64,000 nucleotides of DNA from Flavobacteriaceae bacterium PS02337 (GTDB lineage: Bacteria; Bacteroidota; Bacteroidia; Flavobacteriales; Flavobacteriaceae): positions 62,001-126,000 of the forward strand of contig JASCOE010000001.1 of assembly GCA_029959285.1 (NCBI GenBank), written 5' to 3'. Within the stretch, counting starts at the first letter, position 1. The number at the start of each line of letters is the position of its first letter. The position numbers and the translations under genes were made by a program. The notes beneath the pieces are model-generated. The model was given only the letters and a program-made list of their open reading frames with translations. It did no database searches and was not told the DNA's origin. Positions 7,984 to 17,371 of this stretch are shown in pieces.

Positions 7984-8372
7984 GTAAGCTTCGGAGAAGC
8001 GAAATATTTATAGAAAACAATAGATGTTTACGCTATATAAAAACTCCAGAGGAGTGATATATTTATTTTAAGCCTAATAATTTGTCGCTCCGCAGGAGCT
8101 TTTTTTCTTTGTCTTATTAAATTCTATAAATATTTTACCCCGCTGGGGTTTTAATATCCTAACTAAACTTACAAATCTCCTTATTAAGGTCATTTCAAAA
8201 AATGAAAATCGCTTAACATAGAGATAATCTTATTTCTCAAAACGAAATTAATTTTAAAATACCCCTCGAAAATTCTAGTGGTTTTTGAAATATAGAGTTA
8301 ATAATTTAGTAATACCCTCTAAATACCATCCCAAACATATTTCTTTATCTTCGTTTTTAAAACGTGTTAAAA
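7984..8372. repeat. Gene-free stretch of small palindromic repeats
   Basis: No gene seen in about 390 bp. It contains short G+C-rich palindromes set in AT-rich DNA: ACTCC-aga-GGAGT (8043-8055), GCTCC-gca-GGAGC followed by a T run (8087-8107), and ACCCC-gct-GGGGT (8137-8149), with AAATATTTATAGAA-like strings in both orientations. This looks like one or two decayed copies of a dispersed REP-like element. The rest up to 8372 is AT-rich spacer. Confidence 0.55.
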
Positions 8373-9455
8373 ATGAGCATTGATTATTCTGCGAATAAAA
8401 CTATTTTAGTAGCTCCATTAAATTGGGGTTTGGGTCATGCAACAAGATGTATTCCTATCATTAAGGCGCTTCAAGAGAATAATTATATTCCGATTATTGC
8501 TTCTGATGGTGTTGCATTGGCATTATTACGAAAAGAGTTTCCTTATATACAAACTTTAGAATTGCCTTCTTATCATATTGAATATGCAAAGAATGGTAAA
8601 AATTTTAAATGGAAGCTGATTAAAAATCTTCCGAAAATGATTACTGCCATTTTAGATGAAAAGAAAATGATTAACGGCTGGATCAAAAAACATGGTATTG
8701 ACGGAATAATTTCGGATAATAGATTAGGTGTTTTTAGCAAAAAAGTACCTTCTGTTTTTATGACGCATCAGCTAAATGTGATGACAGGAAATACAACTTG
8801 GTTTACCAGTAAATGTCACCAATATTTTATTAAAAAATACAATCAATGTTGGATTCCTGACTCGAATGAAAAGGTGAATCTTACTGGAGATTTAGGGCAT
8901 CTTAAAACCAATCATTTAAATTTAAAATATATTGGTCCGTTAAGTCGTATGAAGAAAAAGGAAACGCCAAAAGTTTACGATCTTATGATTATACTTTCTG
9001 GACCTGAACCTCAACGCACTTTTTTAGATGAAAAATTACAAAAAGAAGCAACAAAATTTCCTGGAAAAGTAGTTTTTGTACAAGGAATTGTAGACAAAAC
9101 ACAAGACAAATGGGAAAGTGGAAATATTACGTATTACAATTTCATGAACTCAAAACAACTGGAACAAACTTTTAACGAAAGTGAATTTGTTCTATGTCGT
9201 TCAGGATATACAACCGTAATGGATTTGGCAAAATTGGGTAAAAAAGCTTTTTTTATTCCAACGCCGGGACAATACGAACAGGAATATTTAGCCATAAAAC
9301 TTCAAGAAGAAAATTTGGTACCGTATGCATTGCAAGACGATTTTACGATTGAAGATTTATCAAAAGTAAAGTCGTTTAAGGGATTATCCCAATTTAAAAA
9401 TGATATTGACTGGGATTCTTTATTTTCTGTTTTTGAAGATAAATCACATCAATAA
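8373..9455 (+). CDS. Glycosyltransferase, GT28-type C-terminal domain
   Basis: About 360 residues. The N-terminus ILVAPLNWGLGHATRCIPI is the glycine-rich acceptor-side loop seen in MurG-like GT-B enzymes of the family 28 type. The C-terminal half has CRSGYTTVMDLAKLGKKAFFIPTPGQYEQEYLA, the usual nucleotide-sugar binding segment. Soluble and probably membrane-associated; donor and acceptor unknown. The GTG three codons upstream is in frame, but the ATG at 8373 gives the better N-terminus. Single gene with a strong hairpin behind it. Confidence 0.85.
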   Translation: MSIDYSANKTILVAPLNWGLGHATRCIPIIKALQENNYIPIIASDGVALALLRKEFPYIQTLELPSYHIEYAKNGKNFKWKLIKNLPKMITAILDEKKMINGWIKKHGIDGIISDNRLGVFSKKVPSVFMTHQLNVMTGNTTWFTSKCHQYFIKKYNQCWIPDSNEKVNLTGDLGHLKTNHLNLKYIGPLSRMKKKETPKVYDLMIILSGPEPQRTFLDEKLQKEATKFPGKVVFVQGIVDKTQDKWESGNITYYNFMNSKQLEQTFNESEFVLCRSGYTTVMDLAKLGKKAFFIPTPGQYEQEYLAIKLQEENLVPYALQDDFTIEDLSKVKSFKGLSQFKNDIDWDSLFSVFEDKSHQ

Positions 9456-9542: not shown

Positions 9543-10838
9543 TTAGAAATTAAATTGCGCTTGCAATCTTAAAACATTTCCTTGTTGTCTGTTTATTGGA
9601 AGTGCACTGTCTTCAAAAGTTCTATCTGCAATTACATATTCTGCTGTTAGTTCGAATGCTTTAAAAGGTTGCCATTCTACACCAATTTCGTAATCTCTAA
9701 CTACGTAACTTCTAGCATCTTTTTCATATTTTTTTCCTCCATCATAATATTGAAATTTGGCGAAAGGGTAAATGCGCTGTTTTTTAAGATCCCATTTGTA
9801 ATTCAACAAAACATAACCTCCATTTAAATCTGTTTCATCAACAGTGTTGGTTACGGTATTGTAACGAGGCCCTCTTCCAATGTTATACTCTGTCTGGATT
9901 CCGAAAGGTCTTGGATATAAAACGAAAGTTGCTCCAACTCTCTGATCTTTTACATATTGCGGATCATTTACAATAACTCCTGACGAAATTTCTCCCGTAA
10001 ATGCCCATTTTCCTGTATAAGCTTGAATTCCGGGTTCAATAATCTGGCTTCCAATTACAAAAGGATAACTTACTCTTGTAACCACATTTAAATCTCTGTT
10101 TCCGTCTAATTTATTGGCAATTTGACCGTTGTAAACTCCGAAAGCAAAAACTCCGTAATCTCCAGAACCTTTGTAACCATCTTGAACCAACATGGCAAAA
10201 CGCGCTCTAATTTCGGCTGGAGCCCAATAGAAAATAGCACCTAAATCTCGTTCGTTTAATATCGAACTATTAATAGCGTCGGCACGATCTAAAGTTAAAC
10301 GTTGCGAGCTAGATTGCATATTTTCAAATCCGTACGGAATTTTACTTTGTCCGATACGAACGCGATATTCTTTTTTCTTATCGAAAGAAAGATCAAAATA
10401 CAAGTCACGAATCTGTACAAAGTTCTGAACTCCAGTACTTGGTGAACTAGCAAAATCGGGTTGAAAATAGAAATAAACATTTGGATGAACTTGTCCTGAA
10501 AATACAAAACGTGCACGGCGAATAAAAAGTCCGTTGTTTGCTTTTGCATTTGGATCTGTAGAAGTTGTTCCCCAAGATTTATCACATTGTTCGCAGGAAA
10601 CTTTATCATTAGTAGAAAACAAACCATTGTATCTAATTTGAGCATAACCTCTTAACGAAATTCTGTCGTACCAATGTTCAACATCACTAACACCAGAATT
10701 CGTTTCGGGTAACTTCGCATTATTGATAGAATCTAAAATACGCATTACCTCGTTTTTTACATCCTGTTTGTTTAATTCTTGCGCATTGACACCGCAAGTG
10801 ACTACTAATAAAACTGCAACAATTACTCTTTTTATCAT
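9543..10838 (-). CDS. Phosphate-selective porin O/P family protein
   Basis: About 431 residues. Signal peptide MIKRVIVAVLLVVTCGVNAQ, a short helical stretch, then a barrel with RISLRGYAQIRYNG, FIRRARFVFSGQVHPNVYFYFQPDF and a terminal phenylalanine (LRLQAQFNF), as in the OprO/OprP family. These trimeric outer-membrane channels take up phosphate or polyphosphate. The longer ORF begins 15 codons upstream, but the -7 box at 10870-10877 would place the transcript start inside that extension, and the signal peptide begins at 10838. Directly next to a PhoR/PhoB-like pair and preceded by 11-bp spaced hexamers, which supports phosphate control. Confidence 0.92.
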   Translation of the reverse strand: MIKRVIVAVLLVVTCGVNAQELNKQDVKNEVMRILDSINNAKLPETNSGVSDVEHWYDRISLRGYAQIRYNGLFSTNDKVSCEQCDKSWGTTSTDPNAKANNGLFIRRARFVFSGQVHPNVYFYFQPDFASSPSTGVQNFVQIRDLYFDLSFDKKKEYRVRIGQSKIPYGFENMQSSSQRLTLDRADAINSSILNERDLGAIFYWAPAEIRARFAMLVQDGYKGSGDYGVFAFGVYNGQIANKLDGNRDLNVVTRVSYPFVIGSQIIEPGIQAYTGKWAFTGEISSGVIVNDPQYVKDQRVGATFVLYPRPFGIQTEYNIGRGPRYNTVTNTVDETDLNGGYVLLNYKWDLKKQRIYPFAKFQYYDGGKKYEKDARSYVVRDYEIGVEWQPFKAFELTAEYVIADRTFEDSALPINRQQGNVLRLQAQFNF

Positions 10839-10869: not shown

Positions 10870-10936
10870 CAAAGATGACTCACCTATGTTAAGAAAACAT
10901 TAACTAGATGTTACTATAATAAAAATTTAATGTTAC
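10870..10936 (-). promoter_or_regulatory. Pho-box-like promoter of the porin
   Basis: Read on the minus strand: GTAACA (10936-10931), a degenerate unit (10925-10920), GTAACA (10914-10909), TTAATG (10903-10898) and TTAACA (10892-10887), all in 11-bp register. After a 9-nt gap comes the -7 box CATCTTTG (10877-10870). The hexamers replace a recognisable -33 element, as expected for an activator-dependent Pho promoter. The same layout recurs at 13151-13228 and 16152-16207. Confidence 0.75.
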
Positions 10937-11007
10937 GGCTGAAATCCGTATGTTTATTTATTGTTAAAAACCACGTTTTACGCCTTTTAACATAAACACA
11001 ATTAGAT

Positions 11008-12087
11008 TTACTTAACCTCTAATTTTGAAAATTTATTTGCTTTTTCGAGCGTAAAAGAGAACTCAGAACCAATTCCGAACTCACTTTCTACGTAAACTTT
11101 CTCTTTATGTGCTTCAATAATATGTTTTACAATCGCCAAACCTAAACCAGAACCTCCTTCAGATCGAGTTCCGCTTTTATCAACTCTGTAAAAACGTTCA
11201 AAAAGTCTCGGAATATTCTGTTTTTCAACACCTTCTCCATTATCACTAATACGAATTAAGACTTTTTTCTTGGTTAAGTTAACAACGCCAACTTCGGTTA
11301 AACCGCCTTCTTTTCCGTATTTAATAGAATTTACAATCAGATTTTCAAGAACTTGCTGAATTCTGTCTTGATCTCCGCGAATCATAACCGACTGCACATT
11401 CTTACTTTCAAAAGCCAATTTGATTTTCTTTTTGTCTGCTTTCATTTCTAGCAGTTCAAAAACATTCTGAATCAATTCAACAACATCAAAATCAGTCATA
11501 TTCAAATCTAAATCGCCCGATTCTAATTTGGTAATCATATCCAAATCTTCTACAATATATATAAGACGCTCTACTCCTTTTTCGGCGCGTTTTAAATATT
11601 TTTTTCTGATGTTTTTATCGTCCATTGCACCGTCAAGCAAAGTAGAAACATAACCTTGAACGGTAAACAATGGTGTTTTTAATTCGTGTGAAACGTTTCC
11701 TAAAAACTCTCTTCTATATTGTTCACGAATTTCGAGCATTTCGATTTCGAGTTTTTTATCTGTTGCAAACTTTTTCACTTCACGCGAAAGCGTTTCCATA
11801 TCAGTGTTAATGGGCTGATTGATAAGTGTTGTCGACTCTAATAACGAAACCTCATCGTAGATTTTCTTTACTCTTCGGTAAATAAAGCGTTCTACGCGAT
11901 ATTGCAAAACCAAAAATGAAAATATATAGATGACAATAATGAAGATTATTCCGAATGCTACTTGATGTTTTAATTGATTTTTATAAAATAAAGACATCAG
12001 CATCAGTACAAATGCCGTCGCAAATAGACTTATATATAATGCCGATTTTATGGCAAATTTGTATGTTTTTTTAAAATTAATCTTCAT
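11008..12087 (-). CDS. Sensor histidine kinase, PhoR-like
   Basis: 359 residues with two membrane segments (about 13-35 and 43-63) and almost no periplasmic loop. A short linker leads to the dimerisation helix with the phospho-accepting His at 134 in NVSHELKTP. The ATPase domain has LENLIVNSIKYG (N box), ISDNGEGV (G1) and GGSGLGLAIVKHI (G2). The minimal periplasmic part matches PhoR, which senses through the phosphate transporter complex. Encoded downstream of its probable partner PhoB and upstream of a phosphate porin. The PhoR name rests on this context and is an inference. Confidence 0.88.
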   Translation of the reverse strand: MKINFKKTYKFAIKSALYISLFATAFVLMLMSLFYKNQLKHQVAFGIIFIIVIYIFSFLVLQYRVERFIYRRVKKIYDEVSLLESTTLINQPINTDMETLSREVKKFATDKKLEIEMLEIREQYRREFLGNVSHELKTPLFTVQGYVSTLLDGAMDDKNIRKKYLKRAEKGVERLIYIVEDLDMITKLESGDLDLNMTDFDVVELIQNVFELLEMKADKKKIKLAFESKNVQSVMIRGDQDRIQQVLENLIVNSIKYGKEGGLTEVGVVNLTKKKVLIRISDNGEGVEKQNIPRLFERFYRVDKSGTRSEGGSGLGLAIVKHIIEAHKEKVYVESEFGIGSEFSFTLEKANKFSKLEVK

Positions 12088-12188
12088 TGAAAAAATTGAA
12101 CCATTAAGAAATTAAGAAAATTAAGTTTTGCTTTTAAGCTATTTTCTTTTGAATATATAAAAAAACAAAAAAAGGAATAACTCAAAAA

Positions 12189-12232
12189 CCATATAAGAAA
12201 ATGAAGATTGTAAAGCTTCAATTCTTATATGG
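12189..12232 (-). terminator. Hairpin between phoB-like and phoR-like genes
   Basis: CCATATAAGAA pairs with TTCTTATATGG, extended by a further AT/GC stem. On the minus strand it is followed by GTTTTTG. It sits in the 253-bp gap between regulator and kinase, so it may attenuate read-through and let the two be expressed at different levels. The rest of the gap (12271-12345) has CTTAG/TTAGAA short repeats and no gene. Confidence 0.6.
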
Positions 12233-12340
12233 CTTAAATGTATTGAATATTTTTAAAAGAATTTGAAAGGGATTAAATCTTTACCAAAATTCTAAAATCA
12301 CTTAGCAACTTAGTATCTTAGAACCTTAGCATCTTAAAAT

Positions 12341-13024
12341 CTAAACTTCAAATTTATAACCTACTCCTTTTATTGTTTTGAAAAGATCTTCTCCAATTTT
12401 TTCGCGCAGTTTTCTAATGTGAACGTCAATTGTTCTTCCTCCAACCACAACTTCGTTACCCCAAACTTTATCCAAGATTTCGTCTCTTTTAAAAACTTTT
12501 CCAGGTTTTGAAGCCAATAGGTAAAACAATTCGAATTCTTTTCTTGGCAAAGCAATTTCTACATTGCCTTTTATGATTTTGTATTCTTCGCGATTAATCT
12601 CGATTCCGCCTACATTCAAAGTATCAGTAACAACTTCTTGTTCTTTTAACCTTCTTAACAGCGCCTTTACTTTAGACACTAATAATTTTGGTTTAATTGG
12701 CTTCGTAATATAATCGTCAGCACCAGCATCAAAACCAGCTACTTGCGAATAATCTTCACTTCTTGCTGTAAGGAAAGTTATGATAACATTATTTAATTCA
12801 GGAATTTTTCTAATATGCTCGCAAGCCTCCATTCCGTCCATTTCTGCCATCATCACGTCCATAATGATTAATTCAGGCAGCTCTTTCTGCGCTTTTGCTA
12901 TTGCATCTTTTCCATTAGATGCCGTAACAATCTGGTAGCCTTCCTGAGCAAGGTTATAGCCAACGATTTCTAAGATATCTGGTTCGTCGTCAACTAATAA
13001 AATCTTAGTTTGTGTTTTTTTCAT
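12341..13024 (-). CDS. OmpR/PhoB-family response regulator
   Basis: About 227 residues. Receiver domain: acidic pair VDDEP (11-15), phospho-acceptor Asp56 in LIIMDVMM, and Lys108 in YITKPIKP. The C-terminal winged helix (about 135-227) has PRKEFELFYLLASKPGKVFKRDEIL and GRTIDVHIRKLREKIG, the OmpR/PhoB DNA-binding signature. The ATG at 13024 is preferred to an in-frame TTG three codons upstream. Divergent from the TonB-dependent receptor, with PhoR-like kinase and phosphate porin downstream. Probable reader of the 11-bp spaced hexamers in this block. I see no phased hexamers on its own side. Confidence 0.92.
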   Translation of the reverse strand: MKKTQTKILLVDDEPDILEIVGYNLAQEGYQIVTASNGKDAIAKAQKELPELIIMDVMMAEMDGMEACEHIRKIPELNNVIITFLTARSEDYSQVAGFDAGADDYITKPIKPKLLVSKVKALLRRLKEQEVVTDTLNVGGIEINREEYKIIKGNVEIALPRKEFELFYLLASKPGKVFKRDEILDKVWGNEVVVGGRTIDVHIRKLREKIGEDLFKTIKGVGYKFEV

Positions 13025-13150
13025 AAATAGCAAAAATTGAGATTTTTATATCGAACTTTTATTGTTTAGTGTTCGACATTTCTTATTTCACAGGGTAAAT
13101 ATACTAACAAAAGAACCGTTAAAAAATGGTGTTAACCGTAATTTAATCTC

Positions 13151-13228
13151 ATAACAATTTGATAATCTTAACAACACAAAAACATAACAAGTCCGTAACA
13201 TGGACTTTACAGCGTGGTTCTTTCTTTG
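13151..13228 (+). promoter_or_regulatory. Pho-box-like promoter of the TonB-dependent receptor
   Basis: Six hexamers in 11-bp register: ATAACA (13151), ATAATC (13162), AACACA (13173, poor), ATAACA (13184), GTAACA (13195) and TTTACA (13206-13211). A 9-nt gap follows, then the -7 box TTTCTTTG (13221-13228). The transcript would start about 25 nt before the ATG at 13259. Confidence 0.75.
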
Positions 13229-13258
13229 CACAAAAATAAATTAACACAACACTGAACA

Positions 13259-16033
13259 ATGAAATTCAATTTAAGATTTCTCTTTATTGCATTATTTATC
13301 TGTACGATTTCGATCGCGCAAAACAAAGGTACAATTTCTGGGGTCCTAACTGACAAAGAAATGAACAATGATGTTCTGCCTTTTGCTAATGTATTGATTA
13401 AAGGTACGAATATTAGCGTAAATACCGACGTAGATGGAAAATATTCCTTAAGCGTAAATCCTGGAAATTATACTGTAATTTTTAGTTTCCTAGGATATGA
13501 ATCTGTAGAAACTCCAGTTGTCGTAAAAGCAAACGAAACTGTAGTTCTTAACCAAGCTCTTTCTTCTGGAAGTTATACACTAAAAGATGTAGTTGTAAAA
13601 GCTGCTCCAGTAAGCAAACAAAAAGAGTCAGCATTATTATTAGATCAAAAAAATGCGGTTTCTTTTAAAGCAGCAATTGGTGCTGAAGAAATAACTAGAA
13701 AAGGAGTTAACGATGTTGCAAATGCTGTTGCTAAAGTGAGCGGTGTTTCTAAACAAGATGATTCTGGAAATGTCTTCGTAAGAGGATTAGGAGACCGTTA
13801 CAATGTAACTACTTTAAATGGTCTTCCATTACCATCAAACAATCCGGCTAACAAAAACATTCTTTTAGAAATTTTCTCTACAAATATTGTTGACAATATC
13901 GGAATTAGTAAAACTTTTGAGGCTCAAAATTATGCTGATTTTGGTGGTGCAAATATTGATATTAGTGCTAAAAAATTCAGCGGAAGTCCTTTTATCACTT
14001 TCTCTATCGGTACTGGTGCAAACACAAATGTTTTAGGACAAGATCATTTTTACCTACAAGACGGACCAAATTATTTTGGATTTAAAAAAGTAGGCGTTCC
14101 TGATTCTCCGCTTCAACCATACAACTATTCAACAAGCTGGGACAGACAAACAAGTAAAAATGTATTAAATGCTTTCTACACATTATCTGGAGGAAAGAAA
14201 TTTAATATCAACGACGAAAGTTCAATTGGTACATTTATCACAGGATCTTTCAGCGCGAAAAACAAATTTACTGAAGGTTACAGCAGAGGAGGAATCACTT
14301 CTGACGGAGATATCTTCTCTGATTTTTACAGAACAGCTTACAAACACAGTACAACTACAACTGTTATGGGTACAGCTGATTATAAAATCAACAACAAAAA
14401 CTCTATTTTCTTTACATCTTTATTCTTAAACTCAAGTGATCAAGATTATAGCGAATACGAAGGAACAAACCAGAACTTTGACGGTGGTGGAGACGCAACT
14501 CAACAAATTACAGGTTTTATCAAACGTGGAACTTTCGAAAGAACTCAATTAATTGTAAACCAATTAACAGGTAAAAACAAATTCAACGATCAATGGAATT
14601 TAAATTGGGGAGTTGGTTACAGTATGTCTAACAGTGCAATTCCAGATCGTATGCAAAACTCTTTTGTATATGCTCCAAATGCTATTGATTATACATTTTT
14701 TACGAATTCAAACATCAATAACCACAGATTTTTTCAAGATTTGAAAGAAAATGAAATCGCGGCAAATGTTGCTCTTTCATACAATTTCAAAAAAGGAAGT
14801 GACGATGTTTACAAAGGAAAAGTAACTGTTGGTTACTCAGGAAAGTTCAAAGATGTAACTTATGATATGGAACAATATTCATTTTTTCCAAACAGAAATA
14901 CAATTTCTTTCCCTAAAGAAGATATACACCATGTAGATAACTATTTAGATCCTGCACATTGGGGTTCTTCTTACTCTAACAGAATTCACCAAGAGTATAA
15001 CGGAAATTTAGATATTAATGCTGGATTTGTAAATATTCAATATGCTTTAACTGAAAGATTGAGTGTTATATTAGGTGCTAGATTAGAGCAAGTAACTCAG
15101 AATGTTTCTTACATTACAACAACAGTTCCAGGTGGTGATAGTGCTAATGATTCGAAGTTTAATATTTTACCAAGTTTGATTTCGAAGTATACTTTGAACG
15201 ACAAACAGAATTTAAAATTCTCTGCTAGTAAAACATATACACTTCCTCAGTTTAAAGAAAAAGTGCCAATTATTTACGAAGACGTTGCACAAGCTTACGA
15301 AGGAAACCCGAATTTATATGCTTCAACAAATTACAATTTTGATTTAGGATGGGAATTTTTCCCGAAAGCAGGCGAATTAATTTCTGTAACTGCATTTGGA
15401 AAAATCATTCAAAATCCAATCAACGAAATGTTCTTAAATTCATCTTCAAATGATATTTCTTATGCAAACACTGGAGATAAAGGAACTGTAGCAGGAGTTG
15501 AAGTAGAATTTAGAAAAGATCTTTTTGAAATTGAAAGAAATGACAATCTAAAAACAAAACTTTCTTTTGACGCAAACGGATCTTATTTATACACTAAACA
15601 AGATTTAAGCAACGATAAAGTAAATAATGAAAATGATTTTGGAGCAAACTTTACTTTCACAGACAGTAAATTGACTGGAGCTTCTAATTTCTTAGCAAAT
15701 GCTAACTTATCTTTCTTAAATGAATTTTCAAATAATAAAGACATTTCAGCTACAATATCTTACTCTTATTTCTCAGATAAACTAGCTGTAATTGGAACTT
15801 CAAGAGTAGGAAACATGGTTGATAAAGCTGTAAACAAATTAGACTTTATTGCAAATACAAGTTTGACTAAAAGTTTAAAATTAGGTCTTATTTACAACAA
15901 TATCCTTAACCCAACTTTCGAGCGCGTACAAGAACAAGGAAAAGTACCAGGAAAAGAATCTGTTGGTGACATCACGGTTACATCATACAAAGCAGGTTCA
16001 GATATTAGACTTACTTTAAACTACACATTCTAA
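13259..16033 (+). CDS. TonB-dependent outer-membrane receptor, carboxypeptidase-regulatory-like N-terminus
   Basis: 924 residues. Signal peptide ending ISIAQ (1-21); a CarboxypepD_reg-like Ig fold (about 24-110, with GTISGVLTDKE and DVDGKYSLSV); a plug domain (about 125-230, with GNVFVRGLGDRYNVTTLNG and ADFGGANIDI); then a 22-strand-type barrel ending in phenylalanine. It imports a bulky ligand using TonB energy. There is no SusD partner, so it is not a classical polysaccharide system. The Pho-type promoter and the neighbouring phosphate genes suggest uptake of a phosphorus-containing compound, which is an inference. Confidence 0.93.
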   Translation: MKFNLRFLFIALFICTISIAQNKGTISGVLTDKEMNNDVLPFANVLIKGTNISVNTDVDGKYSLSVNPGNYTVIFSFLGYESVETPVVVKANETVVLNQALSSGSYTLKDVVVKAAPVSKQKESALLLDQKNAVSFKAAIGAEEITRKGVNDVANAVAKVSGVSKQDDSGNVFVRGLGDRYNVTTLNGLPLPSNNPANKNILLEIFSTNIVDNIGISKTFEAQNYADFGGANIDISAKKFSGSPFITFSIGTGANTNVLGQDHFYLQDGPNYFGFKKVGVPDSPLQPYNYSTSWDRQTSKNVLNAFYTLSGGKKFNINDESSIGTFITGSFSAKNKFTEGYSRGGITSDGDIFSDFYRTAYKHSTTTTVMGTADYKINNKNSIFFTSLFLNSSDQDYSEYEGTNQNFDGGGDATQQITGFIKRGTFERTQLIVNQLTGKNKFNDQWNLNWGVGYSMSNSAIPDRMQNSFVYAPNAIDYTFFTNSNINNHRFFQDLKENEIAANVALSYNFKKGSDDVYKGKVTVGYSGKFKDVTYDMEQYSFFPNRNTISFPKEDIHHVDNYLDPAHWGSSYSNRIHQEYNGNLDINAGFVNIQYALTERLSVILGARLEQVTQNVSYITTTVPGGDSANDSKFNILPSLISKYTLNDKQNLKFSASKTYTLPQFKEKVPIIYEDVAQAYEGNPNLYASTNYNFDLGWEFFPKAGELISVTAFGKIIQNPINEMFLNSSSNDISYANTGDKGTVAGVEVEFRKDLFEIERNDNLKTKLSFDANGSYLYTKQDLSNDKVNNENDFGANFTFTDSKLTGASNFLANANLSFLNEFSNNKDISATISYSYFSDKLAVIGTSRVGNMVDKAVNKLDFIANTSLTKSLKLGLIYNNILNPTFERVQEQGKVPGKESVGDITVTSYKAGSDIRLTLNYTF

Positions 16034-16059
16034 GAAGTAGATTCTAAATAAATTTAAAG

Positions 16060-16094
16060 AAAGGTGATTAGGCAATTCTAATCACCTTTTTTTT
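16060..16094 (+). terminator. Terminator after the TonB-dependent receptor
   Basis: AAAGGTGATTAG pairs with CTAATCACCTTT, followed by a T run, 26 nt behind the stop codon. It separates the receptor from the lipoprotein, which has its own promoter. Confidence 0.9.
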
Positions 16095-16151
16095 GTGCAC
16101 AAATGCAATGTAAATTTTACATTAAGCCGAAGTCGTTTTAATTCAGTATAC

Positions 16152-16207
16152 TTAATAGATTGTTAATCTCGTCTTAACTCAGCAAAAACATATGTTCATT
16201 TACTTTG
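16152..16207 (+). promoter_or_regulatory. Pho-box-like promoter of the beta-helix lipoprotein
   Basis: TTAATA (16152), TTAATC (16163), TTAACT (16174) and AAAACA (16185-16190) in exact 11-bp register. Then a 9-nt gap and the -7 box TTACTTTG (16200-16207), about 33 nt before the ATG. Confidence 0.7.
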
Positions 16208-16240: not shown

Positions 16241-17371
16241 ATGAAAAAAAGTTTATTTGCAATGGCTGCAATATTAGGACTTGCTTTAACAAGCTGTAGT
16301 TCTGATGATAACAAGAAAAACGAAAACTCAAGTTCTTTCGTTTTAAAAGTTGACGATTTAAAAGGGAGCATCAATGATGGTGTTGTTACTTTAGACCCAA
16401 CTCAAACTTACACGTTAACTGGAGGTTTAGTTGTAAAAGGTGGAGCAACTTTAGTTATTCCTGCCGGAACAGTAATCAAAAGTTCTGCTACTGCAGAAGC
16501 TACTTCTTTATATATTGCTGTAGAAAGAAATGCTAAAATTAACATCAACGGTACTGCTGCTAAACCAGTTATCATGACATCTGGAAAAGCAACTCCAGCT
16601 CAAAGTGACTGGGGTGGATTAATCATCGCTGGTAACGCTAAAGTAAACACTGGAGACAATGGTACTTCTGAAGTAGGTGGTTTAAGCTACGGAGGTAATG
16701 ATAATGCAGATTCTTCTGGAAATATCAACTTCTTAAAAATTTCTTACACAGGTTCTAAATATACAGCTGAAAAAGAATACAATGGAGTTTCTTTCTTCGG
16801 AGTTGGTTCAGGAACTGTAGTATCTGATATCTACACTTTCGAAAGTGGTGATGACGCAATTGAATTCTTCGGAGGAGCAGTAAACGCTACTAACTTAGTA
16901 ATGATCAACTCTTATGATGATTCATTAGATTTCGCTGACGGATGGCAAGGTACTGCTACAAATGTATACATTAGCGGTGTTACTAAAGCTGGTGTTGAAG
17001 GATCTACTAACGCAAAAGATCCAAGTGGAGCACTTCCAATGACTAATGCTAAAATCACTAACATCTCTATCATTAAAGGTGGTGCTGCTTTTACAGCTGA
17101 TGAAAAAGCAATCAATTACAAAGAAGGTGGTGGAAAACAAACTTACACAAACTTATATGTTGCTACAGGAATGCCTGCAGATCTTGTAAAATTATCTACA
17201 GATGCTGGTGTAACTGCTAACTTAGCTGCTGGTAACTTTACTATCACAAACTATACTTTTGGAGCTTCTATCACTAATACAGCTGGTCCTAAATTATCAG
17301 GAACAACTACAGGTGCTCTAGGTGCTGGTGCTGGTGCTGATTTGCCAACTTGGGCTAACTGGACTAAATAA
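16241..17371 (+). CDS. Lipoprotein with predicted right-handed beta-helix
   Basis: 376 residues. Lipobox LTSC with Cys19, then an acidic SSDDNKKN linker, typical of surface-exposed Bacteroidota lipoproteins. The rest is Gly/Asn/Val/Ile-rich with repeated short strands (LVVKGGATLVIPAGTVIKS, WGGLIIAGNAKVN, GDDAIEFFGGAVNATNLVMI, DDSLDFADGW), as expected for a parallel beta-helix such as pectate-lyase-like or choice-of-anchor surface proteins. No catalytic triad is evident. It follows the receptor but has its own promoter, whose hexamers match those of the receptor and porin, so it is probably a phosphate-starvation surface protein. The ligand is unknown. Confidence 0.85.
   Translation: MKKSLFAMAAILGLALTSCSSDDNKKNENSSSFVLKVDDLKGSINDGVVTLDPTQTYTLTGGLVVKGGATLVIPAGTVIKSSATAEATSLYIAVERNAKININGTAAKPVIMTSGKATPAQSDWGGLIIAGNAKVNTGDNGTSEVGGLSYGGNDNADSSGNINFLKISYTGSKYTAEKEYNGVSFFGVGSGTVVSDIYTFESGDDAIEFFGGAVNATNLVMINSYDDSLDFADGWQGTATNVYISGVTKAGVEGSTNAKDPSGALPMTNAKITNISIIKGGAAFTADEKAINYKEGGGKQTYTNLYVATGMPADLVKLSTDAGVTANLAAGNFTITNYTFGASITNTAGPKLSGTTTGALGAGAGADLPTWANWTK

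Follow-up and report, generated by a model that had tools for sequence, protein, structure and literature searches.

Our analysis of a 64,000-nucleotide stretch of DNA from Flavobacteriaceae bacterium PS02337 (contig JASCOE010000001.1, positions 62,001 to 126,000; hereafter the window) has identified an 11-bp lattice of NTAACA-type hexamers, set in fixed phase to a TTTG-type -7 box, upstream of a porin gene, a TonB-dependent receptor gene and a lipoprotein gene. These genes lie around others encoding a PhoB-like response regulator and a PhoR-like histidine kinase. The lattice, its phase, its conservation and its preference for phosphate genes are seen directly in the genomes compared. We consider it highly probable (about 0.86), on sequence grounds, that this lattice is the Pho box of Bacteroidia, a tandem array that would be bound in the -33 region by the PhoB encoded next to it. 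Our confidence that the element serves phosphate control is high, and it is somewhat lower that this very PhoB is its reader.

Architecture of the three arrays

The porin array (10887..10936, minus strand) reads GTAACA (10936-10931), TTTTTA 11 bp further on, which does not match the hexamer and leaves that position empty, GTAACA (10914-10909), TTAATG (10903-10898) and TTAACA (10892-10887). Its -7 box, CATCTTTG, lies at 10870..10877, 9 nt past the last hexamer. The receptor array (13151..13211, plus strand) has six lattice positions, with ATAACA at 13151, ATAATC at 13162, AACACA at 13173, ATAACA at 13184, GTAACA at 13195 and TTTACA at 13206-13211, and is followed at the same 9 nt by TTTCTTTG (13221..13228, plus strand). 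Four positions make up the lipoprotein array (16152..16190, plus strand), namely TTAATA at 16152, TTAATC at 16163, TTAACT at 16174 and AAAACA at 16185-16190, and the -7 box TTACTTTG at 16200..16207 again begins 9 nt past the last of them. The original prediction, that hexamers repeat every 11 bp at three promoters with the last lattice position ending 9 nt before a -7 box, was borne out to the base.

Two parts of that description required adjustment. The hexamer 9 nt from the -7 box is degenerate at two of the three promoters (TTTACA before the receptor, AAAACA before the lipoprotein), and this is the weakest position of the lattice. In many lipoprotein orthologues it is unrecognisable, and in the aligned promoters described below the hexamers kept best are those ending 20 and 31 nt upstream of the -7 box. 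Similarly, the -7 boxes had been assigned to the Bacteroidota type; TTTG is present in all three, and the leading TA is lacking from each. The -7 consensus in Flavobacterium psychrophilum is TAnnTTTG (PMC9723704); the word PhoB does not occur in that paper.

Conservation of spacing and phase

The three-site pattern has three exact matches in the 5,697,118 bases of the organism's own genome, and these are the three window sites. When one mismatch was allowed, 7 matches were found against 11 for the backward control, so one-mismatch matches beyond the three sites are background. A broader second pattern, also with one mismatch, gave 14 matches in the genome against 6 controls, and 11 of the 14 lie outside the window sites. 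Using a held-out matrix that was trained on other species only, with the window and its nearest relative left out, the three sites scored 45.3, 38.8 and 28.3, whereas the highest score in each of 20 simulated sequences of 64 kb lay between 0.6 and 18.2.

Conservation was studied in the best 80 of 573 confirmed phoB loci, in which PhoB is 71-100% identical. Promoters of 29 receptor, 34 lipoprotein and 8 porin genes were extracted from these loci and scanned for 147 geometries (spacings of 8-14 combined with gaps of 0-20), with hexamer scores that were set by hand from the window's hexamers, so that the scan was not blind. A spacing of 11 with a gap of 9 ranked first of the 147 in receptor and porin promoters. 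In lipoprotein promoters, spacing 11 with gap 20 came first and spacing 11 with gap 9 second. Spacing 11 surpassed every other spacing between 8 and 14 in all three classes, and the peaks at gaps 9 and 20 place the repeats in a fixed phase to the core promoter. The original prediction had staked its case on conservation of the spacing in orthologous promoters, and the spacing is conserved, with 11 / 9 at the top or second place each time.

An aligned matrix was then derived from 54 sites of the 74 extracted promoters, three of them from the window, after 20 low lattice scorers had been dropped. In this alignment, with positions counted from TTTG, TAAC stands at -73, -62, -51, -40 and -29, and ACA, in degenerate form, at -16 to -14. 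Since the register was picked from the three proximal hexamers only (-40, -29 and the degenerate one at -18), the outer three hexamers are an independent sign of a long array. The stretch from about -29 to -24 in the 54 aligned sites, the place where a -33 element should lie, reads TAAC and has no G at -24, so no TTTG-type -33 element was seen at that place.

The receptor proteins themselves match the window's at only 24-60% identity in loci where PhoB is 71-100% identical. In loci L014-L041, receptors of 24-60% identity accompany a PhoB of 80-100% identity, and in L014 identity to the window's proteins is 100% for PhoB, 94% for the porin and 49% for the receptor. Such divergence under a kept promoter suggests fast diversification or exchange of a receptor-lipoprotein cassette.

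Genes downstream of the box

A pattern derived from the matrix had 47 matches in 41 Flavobacterium genomes, as compared with 5 for backward-pattern controls (the own genome is included, with 2 matches). Receptor genes lie 3' of 22 of these matches, and a further match precedes a weak receptor hit. Lipoprotein genes follow 6 (one of them the window's), porin genes 6 (one starting with TTG, as judged by eye), a glycerophosphodiester phosphodiesterase (GDPD) gene 1 and a PstS gene 1; the remaining 10 precede other genes. Receptors, lipoproteins and porins were the matrix training set; GDPD and PstS lie outside it.

The matrix was also run on all open reading frames of at least 120 amino acids in the 80 loci, with the scored locus left out each time and a cut-off of 10. 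Receptors reached this score in 31 of 36 cases, porins in 8 of 8, lipoproteins in 23 of 33, glycosyltransferases in 3 of 49, phoR genes in 1 of 75, phoB genes in 0 of 78 and other genes in 16 of 471. The 16 comprise PstS (4/4), PitA (4/4), further porins (3/3), PlcP-like Metallophos_2 proteins (2/3), DUF47 (1/1), a chromate transporter (1/1) and a protein with a type IX secretion system tail (1/27); nine of the 16 proteins were checked by Pfam, and one of the three further porins has no Pfam match. Outside the training families, 14 of 15 phosphate-type genes scored at least 10, against 0 of 428 unclassified genes, in a count that was not blind: the high scorers supplied the family names, and all members of each family were then counted. 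Together with the 47 matches against 5 controls, these figures show that the spacing is rare in Flavobacterium DNA at large; the original prediction would have had to yield to the opposite result.

A further model, R1, was built from sequence only, using 42 of 67 sites (25 were left out) and no site from this window. It contains the register and eight phosphate-gene sites (DUF47 and PitA, one each; PlcP-like, two; PstS, four). Over the own genome, R1 matches the receptor array best (34.4 bits, E-value 1.3e-7 over the whole genome), followed by the porin array (31.7 bits, E 9.1e-7 over the whole genome), a DUF47-PitA operon on contig C7 (E 4.4e-5) and the lipoprotein array (E 8.9e-4 over the whole genome). 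Lower matches include a choice-of-anchor lipoprotein at E 0.058 and, at E 0.35, an OMP_b-brl_4 receptor; judged from their descriptions, these appear to resemble the induced Fjoh_3414 and Fjoh_3841 of Flavobacterium johnsoniae. Profile searches of the own genome gave no match to PhoX (PF05787) and none above cut-off to PstS (TIGR02136). A PstS-like gene at 6.8 kb of contig C11, which adjoins genes named by eye as TonB/ExbD-type, shows no array.

Five near relatives (the genomes of L014-L018) have 37 R1 matches, and among the 30 that were examined, sites upstream of the receptor, the porin and the DUF47 gene come from five genomes each and those upstream of the lipoprotein from three. Several of these receptor, porin and lipoprotein sites were in R1; the DUF47 sites were not.

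Distribution in the class Bacteroidia

R1 has a match at E <= 0.01 in 32 of 60 class genomes, the own genome included. We examined 29 of the 51 foreign class matches, one per genome, and 12 of them precede phosphate-related genes. These are PstS (L268, L271, L292), a PstC-like permease with a partial PstS domain (L296), PHO4 transporters (L294 and, divergently, L272), DUF47 (L274, L288), a Na/Pi cotransporter (L269), polyphosphate kinase (PPK; L291), a purple acid phosphatase (L286) and PhoB (L283). Six more stand upstream of genes related to the window's receptor or lipoprotein, or to a box-bearing porin (L273, L277, L278, L280, L282, L289). The genes at the other 11 encode Pfam-less outer-membrane proteins, a potassium transporter and an acyltransferase-GNAT fusion, or have no evident link. 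The 11-bp pair is in register with TTTG at 17 of the 29 loci, compared to 0-2 of 29 for each of ten shifted registers, a comparison in which R1 itself leans to that register. Seven of the 12 phosphate loci are in the TTTG register and five are not.

In a pattern search across the phylum, matches and controls numbered 16 and 3 in the genus, 8 and 0 in the family, 0 and 0 in the order and 18 and 4 in the rest of the class. Eleven class loci from this search were distributed as 5 before receptors, 1 before a PHO4 transporter, 1 before a porin O/P, 1 before an acyltransferase-GNAT fusion and 3 before other genes. Over all searches, the genes downstream of boxes include PstS, PitA, DUF47, PlcP-like, GDPD, PhoD, PPK and Na/Pi transporter genes. 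The link of the lattice to a Bacteroidota Pho regulon is hence supported, and the box marks phosphate genes beyond the three promoters on which the link was first proposed. Going one step further, we lean towards the view that phosphate acquisition throughout the class Bacteroidia is under the control of a single ancestral 11-bp NTAACA array, phased to TTTG, that takes the place of the -33 element.

The acyltransferase-GNAT fusions lie directly 3' of the box in two genomes of other families (L178:1569-3044 and L279:1-1482). We take them to resemble ornithine-lipid synthases, and their position is a hint of phosphate-controlled lipid exchange.

The locus and its response to low phosphate

The order of genes in the window is glycosyltransferase, phosphate-selective porin O/P, PhoR-like kinase, PhoB-like regulator, TonB-dependent receptor and lipoprotein. 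The glycosyltransferase gene (8373..9455, plus strand; PF04101) is followed by the porin gene (9543..10838, minus strand; PF07396 Porin_O_P), the kinase gene (11008..12087, minus strand; HisKA and HATPase_c) and the regulator gene (12341..13021, minus strand), whose product, with Response_reg and a Trans_reg_C winged helix, is the proposed reader of the arrays. The receptor gene (13259..16033, plus strand) encodes Plug, beta-barrel and CarboxypepD_reg domains. The lipoprotein gene (16241..17371, plus strand) has no Pfam match, and "beta-helix" was the original prediction's name for it. The Pfam domains agree with the earlier claim that a PhoB-like regulator and a PhoR-like kinase are encoded among the three promoters; a receiver and winged-helix regulator adjoins a HisKA/HATPase kinase, as expected of a PhoB/PhoR two-component system.

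The locus matches Fjoh_0541 to Fjoh_0546 of F. johnsoniae, the PHO regulon locus induced by low phosphate (Lidbury et al., PMC8115612), in the order and families given in Table 1 of that paper (glycosyltransferase, OprP, PhoR, PhoB, TonB-dependent receptor and FII lipoprotein), the comparison being one of order and families, not of sequences. On this basis, the counterparts are Fjoh_0541 for the glycosyltransferase, Fjoh_0542 (OprP) for the porin by family and gene order, Fjoh_0545 for the receptor and Fjoh_0546 (FII) for the lipoprotein by gene order. In the transcriptome fold-change column of the same paper, whose text gives a log2 threshold, the low-phosphate value is 8.02 for the receptor Fjoh_0545, 9.91 for the lipoprotein Fjoh_0546, 5.42 for the glycosyltransferase Fjoh_0541, 3.06 for phoB and 0.76 for PhoR, and 95 transcripts were strongly induced. 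The original prediction tied the receptor and lipoprotein to a Pho regulon, and this part is supported by the induction of both counterparts; the porin does not share in it, as set out below. In the main text of PMC8115612, neither "Pho box" nor "promoter" occurs.

Proposed mechanism and its alternatives

Based upon these observations, we propose that phosphate scarcity would lead PhoR to phosphorylate the adjacent PhoB. PhoB dimers would then line up head to tail along a single face of the DNA, with each NTAACA hexamer taking one winged helix and successive hexamers lying a helical turn apart. With the array held at a fixed distance from the -7 box, the hexamers ending 20 and 31 nt upstream would lie at or beside the site of the housekeeping -33 element, and PhoB could substitute for the missing -33 contact and recruit the sigma factor and RNA polymerase. 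In this manner, PhoB would activate the genes for the TonB-dependent receptor and the surface lipoprotein, probably that for the porin as well, and the DUF47-PitA phosphate transport operon elsewhere in the genome. PhoB binding, phosphorylation and sigma contact are steps that we infer. Most likely, the mechanism works like the Pho box of Escherichia coli, with a hexamer like that of Bacillus PhoP.

Several observations weigh against this proposal. In the own genome, 6 R1 matches reach E <= 0.01, and at two of these no phosphate gene is known, compared to the 95 strongly induced transcripts of F. johnsoniae, and much of a response of that size would have to be indirect or to act through weaker boxes. 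In the five near relatives, 12 of the 30 examined matches have no evident phosphate link, and the class matches of R1 lean to the register and the eight phosphate-gene sites that it contains, so that its matches to the families of those sites are independent of training by genome and not by family. Among 80 family genomes, 4 of 9 PstS genes above the cut-off have an array directly upstream (L161, L162, L164, L165); some of the five array-less genes are perhaps inside operons. A lattice score below 5 was obtained for 5 of 28 scored receptor promoters. At phoB itself, none of the 78 promoters reached a score of 10, and a -7 box at a fixed distance from the pair of TTAA motifs described below was not established in the 80 loci. 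Beyond the class there was no enrichment, with 8 matches against 13 controls in 149 genomes; a single family, represented by four genomes, supplied three of the eight, and these stand upstream of genes for a receptor, a PhoD phosphatase and an unnamed protein. By the methods used here, the box thus presents itself as a class-level feature. Finally, the porin counterpart Fjoh_0542 (OprP) was not induced in F. johnsoniae (-1.3, p-adj 0.245; PMC8115612), although the porin has the second-best box here, and this counts against a simple activating role of that box.

The alternative that survives best holds that the lattice is a phosphate-starvation operator read by another OmpR-family regulator and not by the neighbouring PhoB. 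OmpR-family proteins generally use direct repeats of about this period, and PhoB is a putative reader here. In another genome (L287), one box-bearing stretch lies between two regulators that were judged by eye to be PhoB-like. We nevertheless regard another reader as unlikely, because phoB sits among the box-bearing genes, PhoB is 71-100% identical in the 80 loci, a PhoB of 60% identity bears the box in L283, and phoB of F. johnsoniae is itself induced by low phosphate (3.06; PMC8115612).

It is far less probable that promoters of outer-membrane proteins in Bacteroidota generally have the lattice, with no tie to phosphate. The genus-level matches are indeed mostly before receptors, porins and lipoproteins, but the box also precedes genes for inner-membrane and cytoplasmic phosphate functions (PitA, DUF47, PPK, PlcP-like phosphoesterases and PhoB), none of the 428 unclassified genes of the same loci scored at least 10, and matches per genome are few. 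Chance alone, in which TTAA motifs common at 33% G+C would have been selectively read from AT-rich intergenic DNA, as the background level of one-mismatch matches in the own genome (7 against 11 controls) might suggest, is refuted by the counts in the genus (47 against 5), the held-out matrix scores far above simulation and the register (17 of 29 against 0-2).

Relation to known Pho boxes

The Pho box of E. coli abuts the -10 element, replacing the -35 element, and its targets are the pst, phosphatase and polyphosphate genes. The PhoP box of Bacillus subtilis consists of TTAACA repeats, nearly the same hexamer and spacing as here, although we found no confirmation of TTAACA in the literature searched. 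The resemblance to it is one of hexamer and spacing, the phylum and sigma factor being different. In the E. coli box (CTGTCAT), 11-nt direct repeats are read by OmpR-family PhoB, as is proposed here; the Pho box has been described as two 11-nucleotide direct repeats whose consensus varies by species (PMC4415409). In contrast to CTGTCAT, the element in this study is built from NTAACA hexamers at as many as six lattice positions and is tied to a -7 box of the TTTG type, and its main targets in Flavobacterium are TonB-dependent receptors, porins and surface lipoproteins.

Within the Bacteroidota, PhoB controls pstC expression in Bacteroides fragilis (PMC3547664); a Pho box is mentioned there once, in general terms and without a sequence, and "consensus" and "binding site" do not occur. 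Putative Pho boxes have been computed in plcP clusters of marine bacteria, with isolates that include the flavobacterium Dokdonia sp. MED134 (PMC4796936); the parts of that paper covered give no box sequence, nor which flavobacterial clusters have one. A Bacteroidota Pho box sequence was not found in the literature searched, which took in few subscription journals and no supplements, and a description elsewhere is possible.

Bacteroidota are abundant in soil, sea and gut, and the strong phosphate response of F. johnsoniae is known, while the sequence of its DNA element was not found in the literature searched. If the box is truly ancestral, Bacteroidia would gain their first defined operator of this kind, and the Pho regulon could be read from genomes, including TonB-dependent receptors, ornithine-lipid-type acyltransferases and unnamed outer-membrane families. 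A usable matrix would permit genome-by-genome regulon prediction, and it suggests a phosphate role for receptors, lipoproteins and porins whose substrate is unknown. The array also bears on how an activator replaces the -33 element in Bacteroidota.

Further sites in the window and elsewhere

A conserved block, GTTAACCGTAATTTAATCT, lies between phoB and the receptor gene at 13131..13149, with no strand assigned. It holds an 11-bp pair of TTAA motifs that is out of phase with the receptor lattice, and as GTTAACnGTAATTTAATnT it recurs in many loci (34 of 78, with 38 loci showing a looser pattern). It is possibly an autoregulatory site of phoB on the other strand. In L283, whose PhoB is 60% identical to the window's, a box stands before phoB.

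A weaker fourth candidate box lies 5' of the glycosyltransferase gene (8285..8355, plus strand), with TTAATA, GTAATA and CTAAAT and a -7 box with TTCG at 8350. It is fourth best in the window at 8.7 bits, inside the range of the simulated maxima, and has an E-value of 0.27 with R1 over the window. Comparable sites in L014-L018 score 2.0-12.5.

Two own-genome R1 matches at E < 0.01 have no known phosphate link, as have several more at E 0.02-0.4. One is a box-like array at C55:237677-237737, about 132-136 nt 5' of a GH1 beta-glucosidase-like gene, which is kept in five genomes (L206, L261, L263, L264, L266); the Pfam assignment of this glycosidase was made from the own-genome copy only. The other, at C11:812866-812919, is a conserved run of TTAACA/GTAACA that matches the model only to position 55-56 and so has no -7 box. 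It is found in four genomes (L207, L254, L256, L258), and in L207 and L254 it adjoins a protein of 115 amino acids on the opposite strand whose role is unknown.

In a genome from another family, a single contig carries three pattern matches inside 7 kb (L193, G173:C12; at 995, 2179 and 7637). The one match there with a called gene precedes a protein of 157 amino acids, and the three are possibly repeated cassettes. Lastly, three Pfam-less proteins that carry a match (L270, L276 and L285) have N-termini that are alike by eye, with a GY...DY.....DS..RG stretch, and the match of L276 is out of register with TTTG. These proteins may form an unnamed outer-membrane family linked to phosphate.

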